A stretch of DNA of 43,733 nucleotides from Flavobacteriaceae bacterium (lineage in GTDB: Bacteria; Bacteroidota; Bacteroidia; Flavobacteriales; Flavobacteriaceae): the NCBI GenBank assembly GCA_029252265.1, contig JAQXBT010000035.1:1-43733 (forward strand), given 5' to 3'. The position numbers were made by a program, and so were the translations under genes. The notes below the pieces were generated by a model, which saw only the letters and a program-made list of their open reading frames with translations, had not been told where the DNA came from and ran no database searches. Positions 28,855 through 43,733 of the stretch are shown here, in pieces. Each line of letters starts with the position of its first letter. Position 1 is the stretch's first letter.

Positions 28855-28882
28855 ATGTTTTGTTTCAATAGGATTTATGCTG

Positions 28883-28890
28883 CAAATTTA
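28883..28890 (-). promoter_or_regulatory. Putative -7 promoter box for glyA
   Basis: The minus strand reads TAAATTTG, an exact match to TAnnTTTG, 28 nt upstream of the glyA ATG. No good -33 element is seen. Confidence 0.5.
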
Positions 28891-29119
28891 ATAATTAAGA
28901 TTAGATTATTTGATATAAAAACTTCATTTTGAATGATTATTTATTAAATAGTAATCAACATTTTAAGCTTATTATTTTTATTAAATAATTGCAATTTCAC
29001 ATGGGATTGATGAAAATTTAGCAAAGCCCCCCTTTTGCTTAATTATTAGAAAAATATACCCCCTAAATTCAATAATATGTAAAATTTAGATATTAATTTT
29101 TTTATACCTGTAAAAGTAA

Positions 29120-29127
29120 TACTTTTG
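29120..29127 (+). promoter_or_regulatory. Candidate distal -7 box for the thr operon
   Basis: TACTTTTG matches TAnnTTTG exactly. It is about 77 nt upstream of the leader-peptide ATG, and the -33 region is only a T run. Confidence 0.4.
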
Positions 29128-29177
29128 AATAGTAAATTATGATATAATGCGATATTCAAAAAATACTACAACTCTTT

Positions 29178-29185
29178 TAACTTTG
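29178..29185 (+). promoter_or_regulatory. Candidate proximal -7 box for the thr operon
   Basis: TAACTTTG matches TAnnTTTG exactly and ends 18 nt before the leader-peptide ATG at 29204, the spacing usual for other genes in this window. The -33 region lacks a clear TTG. Confidence 0.45.
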
Positions 29186-29203
29186 GAATCTATTCAAAGC
29201 AAT

Positions 29204-29263
29204 ATGATTATTGTAACTATTTCAACGATTATTAGCACCCTCATGGGTGCTACGATTATATAA
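29204..29263 (+). CDS. thrL: Candidate threonine operon leader peptide
   Basis: A 19-codon ORF, MIIVTISTIISTLMGATII, ending in TAA. Seven residues are Ile (six ATT, one ATA) and four are Thr (ACT, ACG, ACC, ACG), so 11 of 19 codons read the two amino acids that regulate thr operons in enterobacteria. It begins 18 nt after a TAnnTTTG box and ends 63 nt before thrA. An 8-bp perfect hairpin (29233-29252) lies within its 3' half. E. coli thrL is the known analogue in function and composition, but there is no sequence homology to rely on. Ile is frequent in AT-rich ORFs, so chance is not excluded; the Thr codons and the position are the stronger argument. Confidence 0.7.
   Translation: MIIVTISTIISTLMGATII
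29233..29252 (+). promoter_or_regulatory. Hairpin inside the thr leader ORF
   Basis: TAGCACCC and GGGTGCTA pair over 8 bp around a TCAT loop. It is the only GC-rich structure in the leader. No T run follows, so it is not a classical terminator; it may be an attenuation or pause element. Confidence 0.6.
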
Positions 29264-29277
29264 ATACCGTCCTAGTG

Positions 29278-29299
29278 TATTGTTTTATTCTAAACAATA
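29278..29299 (+). promoter_or_regulatory. AT-rich hairpin between the thr leader ORF and thrA
   Basis: TATTGTTT pairs with AAACAATA over 8 bp around a 6-nt loop, followed by TTTCAATT. It is thermodynamically weak. The 3' arm can also pair with TATTGT in the leader ORF (29209-29214). Confidence 0.35.
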
Positions 29300-29326
29300 T
29301 TTCAATTAAACATAAAAAAAATTACA

Positions 29327-31780
29327 ATGAAAGTTTTAAAATTTGGTGGAACATCTGTAGGTTCCGCAAAAAATATATCCAAGGTCATAAAAATAGTTAG
29401 GGAGGAATCTGCTACTGAAAATATTGCGGTTGTGGTATCTGCTGTGGGAGGCATTACAGACAAATTACTGATTGCTGCTGACAAAGCCATCAACAAAGAT
29501 CATAGCTATAAGCAAGATTTTGAGGCATTACGATTAAAACATATCGAAGTGATTGATGGGTTACTGAGCGGAGAAGTACACGAAATCACGACTGATATTG
29601 TTTTGAATCATTTATCAAAACTTGAGAAATTACTAGACGGTGTGTATTTGATTAACGAATTATCGCCTAAAACAACCGATAAACTTCTCAGTTTTGGAGA
29701 ATTGATCTCTTCCTTAATCATTTATGAGGCGATGAAGTCAAAAGGAATTAATGTTCAACTTAAAAATTCTCAAAACTTAATTGTAACGGATTCAAACTTT
29801 ACCAATGCAGCCGTTAATTTTGAAGAAACAAATGCCAATATCACCACCTATTTTGAAAGTAATAAAAAGATGGTCACCATTTTACCTGGGTTTATTTCCA
29901 AGTCAGAGAGTGATGAAATTACAACCTTAGGGCGTGGTGGATCGGATTATACAGCGGCAATCCTTGCGGCTGCACTGAATGCTAGTGTGCTTCAAATATG
30001 GACTGATGTCAGTGGTATGTTTACAACCAACCCAAAAATGGTAAAAAATGCGAAACCTATAAATAAATTATCCTATTTAGAGGCCATTGAATTATCTCAT
30101 TTTGGGGCGAAGGTATTGTATCCTCCAACGGTTCAGCCCGTTCTTAGAAAAGACATCCCCTTACTTATAAAAAACACATTAGCTCCAAAAGATCCAGGGA
30201 CCTTAATAACTAAAATTGTCGAAAACGGCCACCAATCTCCTATCAAAGGGATAAGTAATATTAATGATGTGTCGTTATTAACGCTTCAAGGAAATGGAAT
30301 GGTTGGGATTCCTGGATTTTCGAAACGGTTGTTTGAAACCTTAGCACATTCAAAAATAAATGTCATCATTATTACGCAAGCCTCTTCCGAACATTCGATC
30401 TGTATTGGAATTGCTGATAAAGATGCACCGTTAGCAAAAGCAGTGATTGATAAAGAGTTTGAAAATGAAATCTCATTATTTAAAATAGACCCATTAGGCA
30501 TTGAATCTCATTTATCAATCGTTGCAGTGATAGGCGACAAAATGAAAAGCCATCAAGGGATAAGCGGGAAAATGTTTAGTACGCTTGGTAAAAATAATGT
30601 CAATATTAGAGCCATTGCTCAAGGGGCTTCGGAACGAAATATCACAGCCGTCATTTCTAAATCGGATGTTAAAAAAGCACTTAATTGTTTGCATGAACAA
30701 TTTTTTGAAGAAGAAACAAAAGAAGTCAATTTATTTATTGCTGGTGTTGGAAATGTTGGGAAATCATTGATTGAGCAAATCAAGCAACAACAAAAATATA
30801 TAAAATCATCCTTAAAAATCAAGTTAAAGGTCATTGCACTTTCAAATTCTAGAACCATGATGTTTGATGAAAATGGATTGGATTTAGAGGACTGGGAATC
30901 CGTATTAAAAAATGGACAACCCACAGAACCAATGGCATTTTTTGAAGCAACTAAGAATCTTAATTTAAGAAATTCTATTTTTATAGATATCACAGCAAAT
31001 GAAGCCATTGCAAATACCTATTCTCATTATCTAAAACAGAGTATTTCAGTCGTAGCGTGTAATAAGATCGCATGTTCGAGTACCGTTGATAATTACAAGG
31101 AATTAAAGCAGCTTTCGCACAAATATAATGTGCCATTTTTGTTTGAAACCAATGTAGGTGCTGGTTTGCCCGTCATCGATACATTAAAACATTTAATTAA
31201 TTCTGGCGATAAAGTTCATACGATCAATGCCGTACTTTCAGGAAGTTTGAATTTTATTTTTAATAATTTTAATAAAAACACCACCTTTCATGATGTGGTA
31301 AAACAAGCACAAGCAGAAGGGTTTACAGAACCAGATCCAAGAATTGATTTGAGTGGGGTCGATGTAGCGCGAAAACTATTAATTTTAGCACGTGAAAGTG
31401 GTGAGATGTTAGAAATGGATGCCATTGAAAATGACCCGTTTCTACCCAAAGAATGTATGGAAGCGGCTTCGGTAGAATTGTTTTATGAAACCTTAAAAAC
31501 GAATGAAGCTGTTTTTCAAAAACTTTTTTCATTGGCAGAATCAAACCAATGTAAATTAAAATATGTCGCAGCGTTTAAAGACGGTAAATCTAAAGTAGGA
31601 TTGCAAGAGATTCCCGCGGGTCACCCGTTTTATAATCTTGAAGGAAAAGATAATATTGTGATGTTTTACACCAATCGTTATTCCGATCAACCCATGATTA
31701 TTAAAGGCGCTGGTGCAGGATCAGAAGTCACCGCATCTGGTTTATTTGCAGATATCATTAGAATTTCAAACACGAACTAA
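29327..31780 (+). CDS. thrA: Bifunctional aspartate kinase / homoserine dehydrogenase I
   Basis: Protein of 817 residues fusing the first and third steps from aspartate to homoserine. The kinase domain begins with KFGGTSVGS (5-13) and has TTLGRGGSDYTAA; an ACT regulatory region follows (about 320-460, with VSLLTLQGNGMVGIPG and NVNIRAIAQGASERNITAVI). The NAD(P) site of homoserine dehydrogenase is FIAGVGNVGKS (near 470), followed by the catalytic region with NAVLSGSLNFIFN and FTEPDPRIDLSGVDVARKLLILAR. The ACT domains usually give feedback inhibition by threonine. It overlaps thrB by one base (TAATG). An Ile/Thr-rich leader ORF lies upstream. Confidence 0.97.
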   Translation: MKVLKFGGTSVGSAKNISKVIKIVREESATENIAVVVSAVGGITDKLLIAADKAINKDHSYKQDFEALRLKHIEVIDGLLSGEVHEITTDIVLNHLSKLEKLLDGVYLINELSPKTTDKLLSFGELISSLIIYEAMKSKGINVQLKNSQNLIVTDSNFTNAAVNFEETNANITTYFESNKKMVTILPGFISKSESDEITTLGRGGSDYTAAILAAALNASVLQIWTDVSGMFTTNPKMVKNAKPINKLSYLEAIELSHFGAKVLYPPTVQPVLRKDIPLLIKNTLAPKDPGTLITKIVENGHQSPIKGISNINDVSLLTLQGNGMVGIPGFSKRLFETLAHSKINVIIITQASSEHSICIGIADKDAPLAKAVIDKEFENEISLFKIDPLGIESHLSIVAVIGDKMKSHQGISGKMFSTLGKNNVNIRAIAQGASERNITAVISKSDVKKALNCLHEQFFEEETKEVNLFIAGVGNVGKSLIEQIKQQQKYIKSSLKIKLKVIALSNSRTMMFDENGLDLEDWESVLKNGQPTEPMAFFEATKNLNLRNSIFIDITANEAIANTYSHYLKQSISVVACNKIACSSTVDNYKELKQLSHKYNVPFLFETNVGAGLPVIDTLKHLINSGDKVHTINAVLSGSLNFIFNNFNKNTTFHDVVKQAQAEGFTEPDPRIDLSGVDVARKLLILARESGEMLEMDAIENDPFLPKECMEAASVELFYETLKTNEAVFQKLFSLAESNQCKLKYVAAFKDGKSKVGLQEIPAGHPFYNLEGKDNIVMFYTNRYSDQPMIIKGAGAGSEVTASGLFADIIRISNTN

Positions 31781-32703
31781 TGAACGAAGTTAAACTATTT
31801 TCTCCCGCAACTGTGGCCAATGTGTCCTGTGGATTTGATGTTTTGGGATTTTGTCTCGATGCAATTGGAGATGAAATGATTGTTCGTAAAACGACAGAGA
31901 AAGGGATTAAAATCACTAAAATTGAAGGCTATGACCTTCCGTTTGAAGTTGAAAAAAATGTCGCAGGTGTTTCGGCACTTGCCATGTATCACGATGCGAA
32001 TCCCGATTGTGGGTTTGAAATCGAAATTTATAAACATATTAAACCAGGAAGTGGCGTAGGTAGCAGTTCTGCAAGTGCTGCTGGAAGTGTGTATGGAATG
32101 AATGTTTTGCTTGGAAATCCTTACTCTGCTCTAGAACTTACGGCCTTTGCTATGAAAGGTGAAGCCGTCGCAAGTCAATGTGAGCACGCCGATAATATTG
32201 CTCCTACCCTGTTTGGTGGGTTTACGTTGGTGAAAAGTTTAGCGCCTTTAGAAGTGCTTCAAATCCCTACACCTGCAGATTTATTTGCAGTGGTGATTCA
32301 TCCTCAGATAGAAATAAAAACAGCCGATGCCCGCAAAATACTGCCAGAAACGATTTCTTTAAAAAATGCAATCACACAGTGGTCTAATGTAGGGAGCTTG
32401 ATTCATGGTTTACATACCAACGATTATGAACTCATAAGTCGTTCTTTAAACGATGTGGTGGTTGAACCTTTTAGAAGTCAATTAATCCCTGGATTTGAGA
32501 GTATCAAAAAAGCGGCTTTAGAAAGTGGCGCTTTGGGAACTGGAATCTCTGGTTCTGGTCCTTCAGTTTTTAATCTGTGTAAAAGTGAAGCAACAGCCCT
32601 TCAAGTTGAACAGACGATTAGAAATACTTACAAAACACAAGAGATTCCGTTTGAAATATATGTTTCAAAAATTAACTTAGACGGCATAAAACAAATAAAC
32701 TAA
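31780..32703 (+). CDS. thrB: Homoserine kinase
   Basis: GHMP-family kinase phosphorylating homoserine with ATP. The protein has 307 residues, normal for ThrB. Visible motifs are the N-terminal FSPATVANVSCGFDVLGF, the ATP-binding KPGSGVGSSSASAAG (near residue 90) and the C-terminal LGTGISGSGPSVF. The ATG overlaps the thrA stop codon (TAATG), and thrC begins 8 nt downstream, so thrABC form one translational unit. No irregularities seen. Confidence 0.97.
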   Translation: MNEVKLFSPATVANVSCGFDVLGFCLDAIGDEMIVRKTTEKGIKITKIEGYDLPFEVEKNVAGVSALAMYHDANPDCGFEIEIYKHIKPGSGVGSSSASAAGSVYGMNVLLGNPYSALELTAFAMKGEAVASQCEHADNIAPTLFGGFTLVKSLAPLEVLQIPTPADLFAVVIHPQIEIKTADARKILPETISLKNAITQWSNVGSLIHGLHTNDYELISRSLNDVVVEPFRSQLIPGFESIKKAALESGALGTGISGSGPSVFNLCKSEATALQVEQTIRNTYKTQEIPFEIYVSKINLDGIKQIN

Positions 32704-32711
32704 TACGAGCA

Positions 32712-34007
32712 ATGAATTATTATAGTTTAAATAAAATCGCAGCAGACACCACATTTGAAAATGCGGTCATCAAAGGGTTGGCACCAGATAGGGGTTTGTA
32801 TTTCCCTGAAAGCATCACCCCTTTAGATCCCTCCTTTTTTGAGAACATCGAAGCTCTTTCTAATGAAGACATCGCCTTTGAAGCGATCCAACAATTTATC
32901 AGTCCAGAAATACCTGAAGCTGTTTTAAAAACCATCGTCTCCGAAACTCTTAGTTTTGATTTTCCGATTGTAAAACTTACGGAGTCCATTTCAACATTAG
33001 AGCTTTTTCATGGTCCAACCATGGCTTTTAAAGATGTTGGGGCTCGATTTATGGCAAGATGTTTAGGGTATTTTAATCAAAATAATTCCAATGAAGTCAC
33101 TGTATTGGTGGCTACGTCTGGAGATACCGGCGGTGCAGTGGCGAATGGCTTTTTGGGCGTTAAAGGGGTAAGAGTGGTAATATTGTACCCAAGAGGAAAA
33201 GTTAGTAATATTCAAGAAAAACAATTAACGACTTTAGGTCAAAACATTACAGCTTTGGAAGTCGATGGGACTTTTGATGATTGTCAGGAGATGGTTAAAA
33301 GAGCATTTATTGATGATGAACTCACTTCAAAAATGCAATTAACATCTGCCAATTCGATCAATGTGGCGCGATGGCTTCCACAATTGTTTTATTTCATGTT
33401 TGCTTACAAACAGTTGAAAAAAAATCATAAAGAAATTGTTTTTTCAGTGCCAAGTGGGAATTTCGGAAATGTATGCGCTGGAATGATTGCACAAAAACTA
33501 GGTTTGCCAATTAAACATTTTATTGCCTCTAACAATGATAATAATGTGGTAACCCGATTCTTAAAATCCAACTCTTACGATCCAAAACCATCAGTACAAA
33601 CGGTTAGTAATGCGATGGATGTAGGAAACCCAAGTAACTTTATTCGTATTCAAGCCATTTATAAAAATGACTTCGAAACCTTAAAATCAAATCTTTCCTC
33701 GTATAGTTTTACAGACGAAGAAACTAAAAAAGCATTGGATGAAATTTATACAACCACAAATTATATTGCAGATCCTCATGGAGCGGTCGGCTATTTGGGA
33801 TGTAAATCGTATTTAAAAACCAATCCAAAAGCCCATTGTGTGTTTTTAGAAACAGCGCATCCAACTAAGTTTTTGGATGTGGTTAAAGAAGTTATCGACG
33901 CCGATATTCCATTACCTTCACAAATACAATCGGTCATTGATAAACAAAAAGTCGCCACTGAAATTAAAGACTATTCAGAATTTAAAGCATTTTTAACGCA
34001 GGTATAA
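32712..34007 (+). CDS. thrC: Threonine synthase
   Basis: PLP enzyme converting O-phosphohomoserine to threonine. The protein has 431 residues, matching the shorter E. coli-type ThrC. Motifs are the N-terminal LAPDRGLYFPES, LFHGPTMAFKDVGARFMA with PLP lysine K107, ATSGDTGGAVANGF, TSANSINVARWLPQ, and VPSGNFGNVCAG for phosphate binding. It is the last gene of thrABC. The next gene, gcvT, starts 55 nt downstream behind its own candidate -7 boxes. Confidence 0.97.
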   Translation: MNYYSLNKIAADTTFENAVIKGLAPDRGLYFPESITPLDPSFFENIEALSNEDIAFEAIQQFISPEIPEAVLKTIVSETLSFDFPIVKLTESISTLELFHGPTMAFKDVGARFMARCLGYFNQNNSNEVTVLVATSGDTGGAVANGFLGVKGVRVVILYPRGKVSNIQEKQLTTLGQNITALEVDGTFDDCQEMVKRAFIDDELTSKMQLTSANSINVARWLPQLFYFMFAYKQLKKNHKEIVFSVPSGNFGNVCAGMIAQKLGLPIKHFIASNNDNNVVTRFLKSNSYDPKPSVQTVSNAMDVGNPSNFIRIQAIYKNDFETLKSNLSSYSFTDEETKKALDEIYTTTNYIADPHGAVGYLGCKSYLKTNPKAHCVFLETAHPTKFLDVVKEVIDADIPLPSQIQSVIDKQKVATEIKDYSEFKAFLTQV

Positions 34008-42945: not shown

Positions 42946-43481
42946 TGCGAATCATATCGGGATTATACAAAGCCAGGCGAATTTTGGCACCAAAAAAATT
43001 ACCAGTCAGACCCACAACTGACATGGCAAAAGAGGCGTTATTTAACATTATAAACCATCGGTATCATTTTCATGACATCTCATTTTTAGACCTGTTTTCT
43101 GGAACTGGAAATATTAGTTATGAATTTGCTTCTAGAGGAACAGAATCCATTGTTGCTGTGGATCAAAATTTTCATTGTACAAAGTTTATTTCTCAAACTT
43201 CGGAAGCGTTTGAAATGCCCATTCAAGTGATTAAAGCAGACGTATTTGGGTTTTTAGAAAAAACAAAACAACCACAAACAATTATTTTTGCAGATCCTCC
43301 TTACGAGTTTGATCATGAAAGATTTTTAAAAATTGTGGAGCTTGTCTTTCAAAATGAACTTTTAGAAGCGGATGGTGTCCTTATCATAGAACATTCCAAA
43401 CAAACAGACTTATCTTCGGCACCCCAATTCAGCGAAATGAAAGGCTATGGTGGAAACCGGTTTAGTTTTTTCGAAAACTAA
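42945..43481 (+). CDS. rsmD: 16S rRNA (guanine(966)-N2)-methyltransferase RsmD
   Basis: Protein of 178 residues, usual for RsmD, which methylates G966 of 16S rRNA in the assembled small subunit. The N-terminus MRIISGLYKARRILAPKKLPVRPTTDMAKEALFNI (read in parts) carries the family R-I-I-x-G and R-P-T-x-D-x-x-K-E-A-L-F-N motifs. The SAM motif is LDLFSGTGNIS (48-58), and the catalytic ADPPYEF is at 116-122. It begins at the DUF3822 stop codon (TAATG) and converges on the RNase P RNA gene, whose 3' end lies about 7 nt past its stop. Confidence 0.95.
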   Translation: MRIISGLYKARRILAPKKLPVRPTTDMAKEALFNIINHRYHFHDISFLDLFSGTGNISYEFASRGTESIVAVDQNFHCTKFISQTSEAFEMPIQVIKADVFGFLEKTKQPQTIIFADPPYEFDHERFLKIVELVFQNELLEADGVLIIEHSKQTDLSSAPQFSEMKGYGGNRFSFFEN

Positions 43482-43733
43482 AAAAAAGCAGATCTGTAAG
43501 CCGGATCCTGTATCACACAAAATGTGACCCTTATCATTTATCTACGTTTACTGTTGCCAGTAAACTTTAGCTGCCTACCCTTCAGCATCGCACGTGTCGC
43601 GCTCAAACACTGATATACATGACATTGCACCTTATAGAGTTTACCTGGTTTCACTACAGCTTAACCTGTACATTCTTTCTGTTGCACTTTTCCTAGCCTT
43701 ACGACTGGTGGCCGTTAGCCACTATAATACACT
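43482..43733 (-). ncRNA. rnpB: RNase P RNA (bacterial type A), 3' part; 5' end beyond window
   Basis: Catalytic RNA of RNase P, which trims tRNA 5' leaders. On the minus strand I see the conserved segment GTGCAACAGAAAG (43687 to 43675), AGATAAATGAT of conserved region V (43543 to 43533), which pairs into helix P4, and a 3' end GGCTTACAGATCTGC followed by a U-tract at 43487-43481 that may serve as terminator. About 245 nt of an expected 330-400 are in the window; region I (GGAAAGTCC-type) and the 5' arm of P1 are missing. The gene converges with rsmD. Confidence 0.93.

Follow-up and report, generated by a model that had tools for sequence, protein, structure and literature searches.

Examination of the DNA upstream of the thrABC operon of a flavobacterial genome revealed a leader peptide ORF of 38 codons, rich in Thr and Ile, whose last codons overlap a GC-rich hairpin (hairpin A) that recurs upstream of thrA in most related loci, nearly always without a strong intrinsic terminator. 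Judged from sequence, the existence of the leader peptide is close to certain. The region is regarded, with moderate confidence, as a Thr/Ile-sensing attenuator of thrABC in which a stalled ribosome would cover hairpin A directly, without an antiterminator. The stretch analysed, called here the window, is the 43,733-nt contig JAQXBT010000035.1 (assembly GCA_029252265.1, Flavobacteriaceae bacterium), and all coordinates are those of its forward strand. The features of the locus are collected in Table 1. In a scan of named genomes that kept the best 80 of at least 585 relatives, the window thrA came closest to that of a Formosa sp. Hel1_33_131 MAG (locus L032; 97% identity).

Table 1. Features of the thrABC leader region and operon in the window
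Feature	Position	Strand	Remarks
Promoter -7 box TACTTTTG	29120..29127	+	Fits the relatives' consensus TTTTTTTATTAnnnTAAAAnTAATACTTTTGA, built from 79 boxes
Leader peptide ORF, 38 codons, MRYSKNTTTLLTLESIQSNMIIVTISTIISTLMGATII and stop	29147..29263	+	Contains 29204-29263; same-frame ORF in relatives
Hairpin 1, CTTTGGA-ATCTA-TTCAAAG, possible RNA polymerase pause hairpin	29181..29199	+	Inside the ORF; in the minimum-energy fold
Control-codon stretch T I S T I I S T	29216..29239	+	Thr/Ile peaks over 94 loci; unstructured; ends on the 5' arm of hairpin A
Hairpin A, AGCACCC-TCAT-GGGTGCT	29234..29251	+	GC-rich; overlaps the last leader codons
Single-stranded linker, recurring pyrimidine motif (here CCGTCC)	29252..29276	+	C-rich, G-poor
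Hairpin B, AT-rich, 9 bp, -5.8 kcal/mol	29277..29300	+	4 T in the following 8 nt
thrA, bifunctional aspartokinase/homoserine dehydrogenase	29327..31780	+	Pfam; NCBIfam NF006959, 1031.6 bits
thrB, homoserine kinase	31780..32703	+	TIGR00191, NF002288
thrC, threonine synthase	32712..34007	+	TIGR00260

The comparison covered 145 distinct loci from Flavobacteriaceae and near relatives, in which hairpin A was located by the pattern ACCC..GGG, from which variants would escape. It was found in 28 of 30 same-family genomes, 66 of the 75 loci of a second scan and 31 of 40 later same-family genomes, that is, in 94 of the first 105 loci and 125 of the 145 overall; the loci share ancestry and these counts do not represent independent events. 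The first 105 are what remained of 110 (the best 80 of at least 585 relatives in one scan and the 30 best matches of another) after removal of four duplicates (L033, L066, L042 and L046) and of L069, which has 19 nt upstream, and they lean towards close relatives because only the best-scoring matches were kept. The set of 75 is mostly labelled Flavobacteriaceae or its genera, with a few entries labelled only Bacteroidetes, Flavobacteriales or Cytophagaceae, and the 40 later loci were hand-picked, lower-scoring entries among them, and are not a random sample.

The first-pass annotation had described a 19-codon ORF (29204-29263) as a Thr/Ile leader peptide, and its main observations stand: the ORF translates to MIIVTISTIISTLMGATII followed by a stop, 11 of its 19 codons are Ile (7) or Thr (4), 18 nt separate the end of the proposed promoter box from the ATG at 29204, and 63 nt separate the stop codon from the thrA ATG at 29327. 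The persistence of an Ile/Thr-rich ORF upstream of thrA, offered there as the check, was also found among the relatives. An ATG-initiated ORF in the same frame runs through hairpin A in 93 of the 94 first loci that carry the hairpin, in 29 of the 31 later ones and in 122 of 125 overall. Over the 12 codons preceding hairpin A in the 94 loci, the leader frame contains 34.0% Thr, 17.7% Ile and no stop in 1128 codons, whereas the other two frames contain 2.2% and 0.3% Thr, 3.3% and 3.2% Ile, and 4.8% and 1.3% stops; Thr and Ile together make up 52% in frame and 3.5-5.5% out of frame. The 29 in-frame later loci repeat the pattern (29.9% Thr, 19.8% Ile, no stop in 348 codons). The frame-specific Thr/Ile content, the absence of stops and this repeat indicate that the leader is coding. 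They also led, together with shuffling, to the rejection of a chance ORF: among 3000 dinucleotide-preserving shuffles of the 472-nt region 28855-29326, none yielded an ORF like the 19-codon one (at least 15 codons, at least 11/19 Ile+Thr) and one yielded an ORF like the 38-codon one (at least 30 codons, at least 16/38 Ile+Thr). The leader otherwise drifts in sequence, window and L032 differing at three residues, and the 38-residue peptide matched no family in Pfam or NCBIfam.

The Thr codons are concentrated immediately ahead of hairpin A. When codons are numbered from the ACC codon of the hairpin (codon 0, Thr by the search pattern), the frequency of Thr over the 94 loci runs 0.45, 0.49, 0.57, 0.40, 0.49 and 0.63 from codon -6 to codon -1 and does not exceed 0.26 between codons -24 and -7. 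Ile reaches 0.36 at codon -2 and 0.29 at codon -1, with values mostly of 0.07-0.15 elsewhere and further peaks at -9 (0.28) and -19 (0.24); the control stretch of the window contains as many Ile as Thr codons. The control codons overlap the hairpin, the ACC codon of the window (29237-29239) being placed inside the 5' arm of hairpin A. A ribosome extends about 12-13 nt beyond its A-site codon, so that one stalled at codons -4 to 0 would cover this arm. The codon content, read with the known logic of such leaders, suggests that the leader probably senses Thr and Ile.

When folding energies of 36-nt windows were set against those of shuffles over the 94 loci, structure stood out at three positions. 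Mean z is -1.5 to -1.6 for hairpin 1, halfway along the ORF, -1.4 to -1.5 for hairpin A, where the ORF ends, and as low as -2.07 for hairpin B further downstream. In hairpins 1 and B the two arms co-evolve: they pair more favourably with each other than with arms from other loci (t = -5.3 for hairpin 1 and -5.0 for hairpin B, 90 loci each), and segment pairs outside these hairpins reached t = -2.9 at most in about 210 pairs tried. All 94 loci have the ACCC/GGG stem of hairpin A, having been selected for that motif, and covariation of this inner stem is uninformative because it is nearly invariant. Among the outer positions only -1 displays a modest excess of pairing (54 of 94 loci, 41.4 expected), and 39 of the 94 loci form no pair beyond the A-T pair. 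The window and L032 share a distinctive longer hairpin, AGCACCC/GGGTGCT, with loops TCAT and TTGT and matching changes on both sides, which keeps five pairs when the count starts with the A-T pair and moves outward; in the window it can be extended by one T-A pair to 29233-29252.

Structure in the control codons and in the linker that joins hairpins A and B is at or below the level of shuffles (94 loci), the linker reaching a z of +0.56, and positions +16 to +40 contain 460 C and 194 G over the same loci. Hairpin B lies 41 nt from the start of hairpin A with a standard deviation of 5.2, and its distance to thrA has a standard deviation of 18.6 (67 loci); since it is placed relative to hairpin A and variably relative to thrA, hairpin A, linker and hairpin B appear to form one unit. 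These values for hairpin B come from the 67 loci in which it reaches -2 kcal/mol or better; 17 of the 94 returned no hairpin B at all. RNAalifold applied to two clade alignments recovered hairpin A only, since hairpin B drifts too fast to align, and hairpin B was examined instead by windowed shuffles and cross-locus duplex energies. Pairing of the G-rich 3' arm of hairpin A with the pyrimidine motif of the linker was considered and rejected: native pairs were not more favourable than those formed across loci, and shuffles show more structure than this segment.

A strong terminator, defined as a hairpin of -9.5 kcal/mol or better followed by 5 T in 8 nt between mid-leader and thrA, is absent from 124 of the 125 loci with hairpin A, the window included; the sole exception (L241) is hairpin A itself in an extended form. 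The 8 nt following hairpin A contain 3.87 T on average, at least 5 in 19 of 77 loci and 2 in the window. With a lax cut of -7 kcal/mol 20 of the 94 loci pass, the window not among them. About half of these pass through hairpin A and are mostly Flavobacterium, for which reason hairpin A may be a weak terminator in that genus. All three thr leaders of the family that lack hairpin A (L231, L239 and L243) carry strong terminators, and so the hairpin and the strong terminator look like alternatives.

The mechanism favoured here begins with transcription, which would start just downstream of the box at 29120-29127, and with translation of the 38-codon peptide, whose Thr/Ile codons would bring the ribosome to the 5' arm of hairpin A. 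A shortage of charged tRNA-Thr or tRNA-Ile would stall the ribosome on the control codons, where it would cover this arm; hairpin A would be blocked and RNA polymerase would continue into thrA. When supply is good, the ribosome would run on to the stop codon, close to the base of the hairpin, and then leave; hairpin A would form behind the polymerase and, with the C-rich linker, halt or terminate it before thrA, either alone, by pausing or through Rho. Such an OFF state would need the ribosome to be released with the polymerase still close, because a ribosome at the stop codon also covers hairpin A. The geometry of the codons is the main ground for direct occlusion, joined by the missing antiterminator and the apparent mutual exclusion of hairpin A and terminators. 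Sequence comparison establishes the ORF and its frame, the bias and placement of its codons, the positions of the three hairpins, the unstructured linker and the scarcity of strong terminators; ribosome stalling, hairpin A as the OFF state and the manner of the transcription stop are inferred. Against this reading stand the absence of a terminator-like U-run after hairpin A in most loci, the meagre covariation of its stem, the loci that lack the hairpin and the want of any role for hairpin B.

Rho could also act on its own, by loading on the C-rich, unstructured linker once the ribosome has left, with leader translation gating access, and this is the alternative with an appreciable, if lower, probability. 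Rho-dependent termination can likewise be the last step of the occlusion of hairpin A. The stretch from the leader stop to thrA contains 16.1% C and 7.7% G, with C exceeding G in 88 of 94 loci, and the C/G ratio upstream of the promoter is 1.08 for comparison; the last 60 nt of seven leaderless thrA loci contain 39 C and 48 G. The low structure of the linker and the scarcity of strong intrinsic terminators (124 of 125 loci with hairpin A lack one) are in line with Rho as well. However, the last 40 nt before hisG, downstream of a clear terminator, also contain more C than G (72 to 40, 11 loci), so this skew may be common in such 5' regions, and Rho by itself leaves the near-invariant hairpin A and hairpin B unexplained. 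Mycobacterial cys operons, whose leader peptides likewise come without terminators, have been given a similar explanation: in the available parts of that account (PMC1262725), control codons lie near the stop, no obvious terminator is seen and Rho is suggested. As described there, the cys leaders have no conserved terminator hairpin, in contrast to the conserved hairpin A, and they belong to another phylum and another amino acid.

The first-pass annotation had drawn on E. coli thrABC attenuation to propose control by ribosome stalling. In classical attenuation of the E. coli type a terminator and an antiterminator exclude each other, and hairpin B would here be the terminator. The gene and the control codons fit this reading, thr leaders with strong terminators exist both in the family (the three named above) and outside it (L174, L176 and L207), and in 9 of 67 loci the 8 nt behind hairpin B contain at least 5 T. 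The distribution of terminators described above (none at -9.5 kcal/mol or better in 124 of 125 loci with hairpin A, 20 of 94 passing at -7) argues against it, and hairpin B was dropped as the terminator after scans of the thr loci for T-runs and terminators. An antiterminator was sought as a co-evolving or unusually stable alternative pairing and was not detected, although pairing between invariant stretches could go unseen in the co-evolution test. The RNA that runs from the 3' arm of hairpin A to the 5' arm of hairpin B has less structure than its shuffles (mean z +0.77 over 67 loci), whereas the same test applied to hisG leaders gave values below -1 in 9 of 11. On this evidence a direct transfer of the E. 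coli mechanism finds no support, and classical attenuation of thrABC is regarded as improbable. The thrABC operon of E. coli is controlled by the thrL attenuator. Like thrL, the leader described here is short, rich in Thr and Ile and placed directly before a bifunctional thrA followed by thrB and thrC; unlike thrL, it has no strong U-run terminator and no detectable antiterminator, and its control codons run onto the hairpin at the leader end.

Other amino-acid operons of these genomes present a different picture. A His-rich leader precedes hisG in all 11 genomes with that gene among 12 searched, the window's own genome included, and with it comes a terminator of -14.9 to -19.3 kcal/mol that has 4-8 T in the 8 nt behind it. 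The locus of the latter (L119, G000:C57) encodes the leader MKISLFIHHHHLLTSDQAR upstream of hisG, followed by the terminator GACCCGTTTGAGCAATCAAGCGGGTT and a T-run, and carries within the leader a CAAGCG copy that by eye is able to compete for the 5' arm of the terminator, giving a classical-looking histidine attenuator by its sequence. The hisG leader thus has a strong terminator and, by eye, a copy of its 3' arm competing for the 5' arm, whereas the thr leader has neither. Upstream of ilvD, 6 of 13 loci (L153, L154, L158, L159, L163 and L165) display a short ORF rich in Ile, Leu and Val, such as MMKSFLNIISITSVIVIITV, and then a strong terminator; these are probable branched-chain attenuators, seen in a scan of 450 nt, only L153 being complete within 260 nt.

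The terminators of the hisG leaders led to the idea of the same element at other operons being dropped, and a covariance model of hairpin A and linker speaks likewise: the thr leader was the top match in all 14 genomes and no second site scored better than E = 0.139, with a training sequence contributed by 9 of the 14 and only the 150 best candidates per genome scored. The matches for the window (E 0.106) and for genome G123 (E 0.227) are individually non-significant.

Control of translation has also been weighed, in which translation of the leader would open a structure hiding the thrA start, comparable to the sequestor hairpins of some actinobacterial elements. It would suit the 124 of 125 hairpin-A loci without a strong terminator, and translation of the leader would be expected to melt hairpins 1 and A. 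Against it, the stretch just before thrA in the window is A/T-rich and mostly unpaired in the fold, the distance between hairpin A and thrA varies from 68 to 193 nt (94 loci) and the position of hairpin B is fixed relative to hairpin A and not to thrA; such control is considered quite improbable.

As for the start of the leader, the ATG at 29204, proposed in the first-pass annotation, turned out to be an internal Met, the frame being open from the ATG at 29147. The longer ORF consists of MRYSKNTTTLLTLESIQSN followed by the 19-codon peptide, which is thus its tail, and the promoter boxes make 29147 the most likely start of the leader. The box at 29120-29127 lies 27 nt from the ATG at 29147, and in 46 of 94 box/ATG pairs (86 loci) the first in-frame ATG follows its box at 26-29 nt. 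The box put forward earlier, TAACTTTG, of the TAnnTTTG type, lies at 29178-29185, inside the 38-codon ORF. Its place (within 8 nt, relative to hairpin A) is occupied by a box in only two loci of the 94, those of the window and of the sister genome L032, which makes the longer leader more likely; the conserved box is that at 29120-29127, and a promoter at 29178-29185 is not supported. The second box and its typically spaced ATG (29178-29206) could be an internal start or a coincidence. A 19-codon leader made from 29204 by its own promoter, for which the typical 26-nt spacing and the presence of the box in L032 speak, is very improbable given that rarity, its absence from the congener L003, the lack of the T-rich stretch seen at -23 to -17 in the consensus promoter and the overlap of the box with hairpin 1 within the longer ORF.

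Beyond the family, 40 loci representing other families of the phylum were screened, and 10 passed the criterion for a Thr/Ile-rich ORF. An ACCCC..GGG hairpin closes four of the ten leaders (L168 in f4; L177, L178 and L179 in f21) and three have strong terminators (L174 and L176 in f3; L207 in f14). In two more (L171 and L172, f8) the Thr codons are likewise followed by a hairpin in the same position, but one of inverted sequence, ACGGG-GTRA-CCCGT; it holds the stop codon in its GNRA-type loop and lies 105 and 94 nt before thrA. This supports the view that the structure is what matters. The remaining one (L173, f4) fits neither pattern. Hairpin A is missing from 20 of the 145 loci and 17 of these have no Thr/Ile-rich leader, so leader control of thr seems dispensable in some lineages. 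At L067 thrA stands directly behind ilvA (213-1481; threonine ammonia-lyase, TIGR02079, by profile) and no Thr leader was found; a similar ilvA-like ORF, recognised by eye, precedes thrA at L078, L089, L096, L216, L217 and L230, also with no Thr leader found. It is suggested, more tentatively than the mechanism itself, that most of the family dropped the terminator/antiterminator switch at the thr operon for a hairpin in the last leader codons, covered by the starved ribosome, the terminator-bearing thr leaders representing the alternative state.

Searches against Rfam returned no thr leader. At gathering score the whole window matched only a bacterial class A RNase P RNA at its end (43481-43733, minus strand, cut off by the window end), the region 28855-29500 gave at E up to 10 three sub-threshold, chance-level matches (best E 4.8), none of them a thr leader, and 20 related loci gave no match at gathering score. 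Bacteroid-trp RNA (RF01692), which we take to be a trp leader, matched neither the window nor the 20 relatives. Comparative surveys of attenuation by the Lyubetsky and Gelfand groups may cover Bacteroidota. No paper on a thr leader in this phylum was found among the literature matches listed, in which subscription journals are thinly covered, and the available parts of PMC4833913 and PMC6429828 contain nothing on one.

The closest accounts, each as far as its accessible parts go, are the following. Attenuation by leader peptides has been suggested upstream of amino-acid operons in Flavobacterium psychrophilum, a member of the same family, with 5' elements at pheA and hisG (PMC9723704), and section 19 of that account includes neither thrA nor a hairpin that takes in control codons. 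In Bacteroides thetaiotaomicron, short ORFs resembling leader peptides are mentioned within long 5' UTRs (PMC7366714), and Bacteroid-trp RNA is described as a cis-regulatory motif of Bacteroidetes (PMC2864571). The ilvB leaders of actinobacteria have control codons overlapping a candidate terminator hairpin with poly-U after it (PMC1262725); they share with the thr leader the placement of control codons on a hairpin and differ in phylum and amino acids, and hairpin A is without poly-U. The thr leader, with its hairpin at the leader end and no strong terminator, would accordingly be a variant on known attenuator leaders.

Bacteroidota are major bacteria of sea and soil, and the parts of the literature available give no more than hints of attenuation at their amino-acid operons. 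The analysis adds a short coding gene that gene finders probably overlook. With a hairpin present in 125 of 145 loci, control codons lying on it and no strong terminator, the leader would be a minimal and easily tested switch. If the proposed mechanism is true, it could show attenuation working without a U-run terminator; if the operon is instead under ordinary attenuation by a hidden route, the family still gains a well-supported leader peptide.
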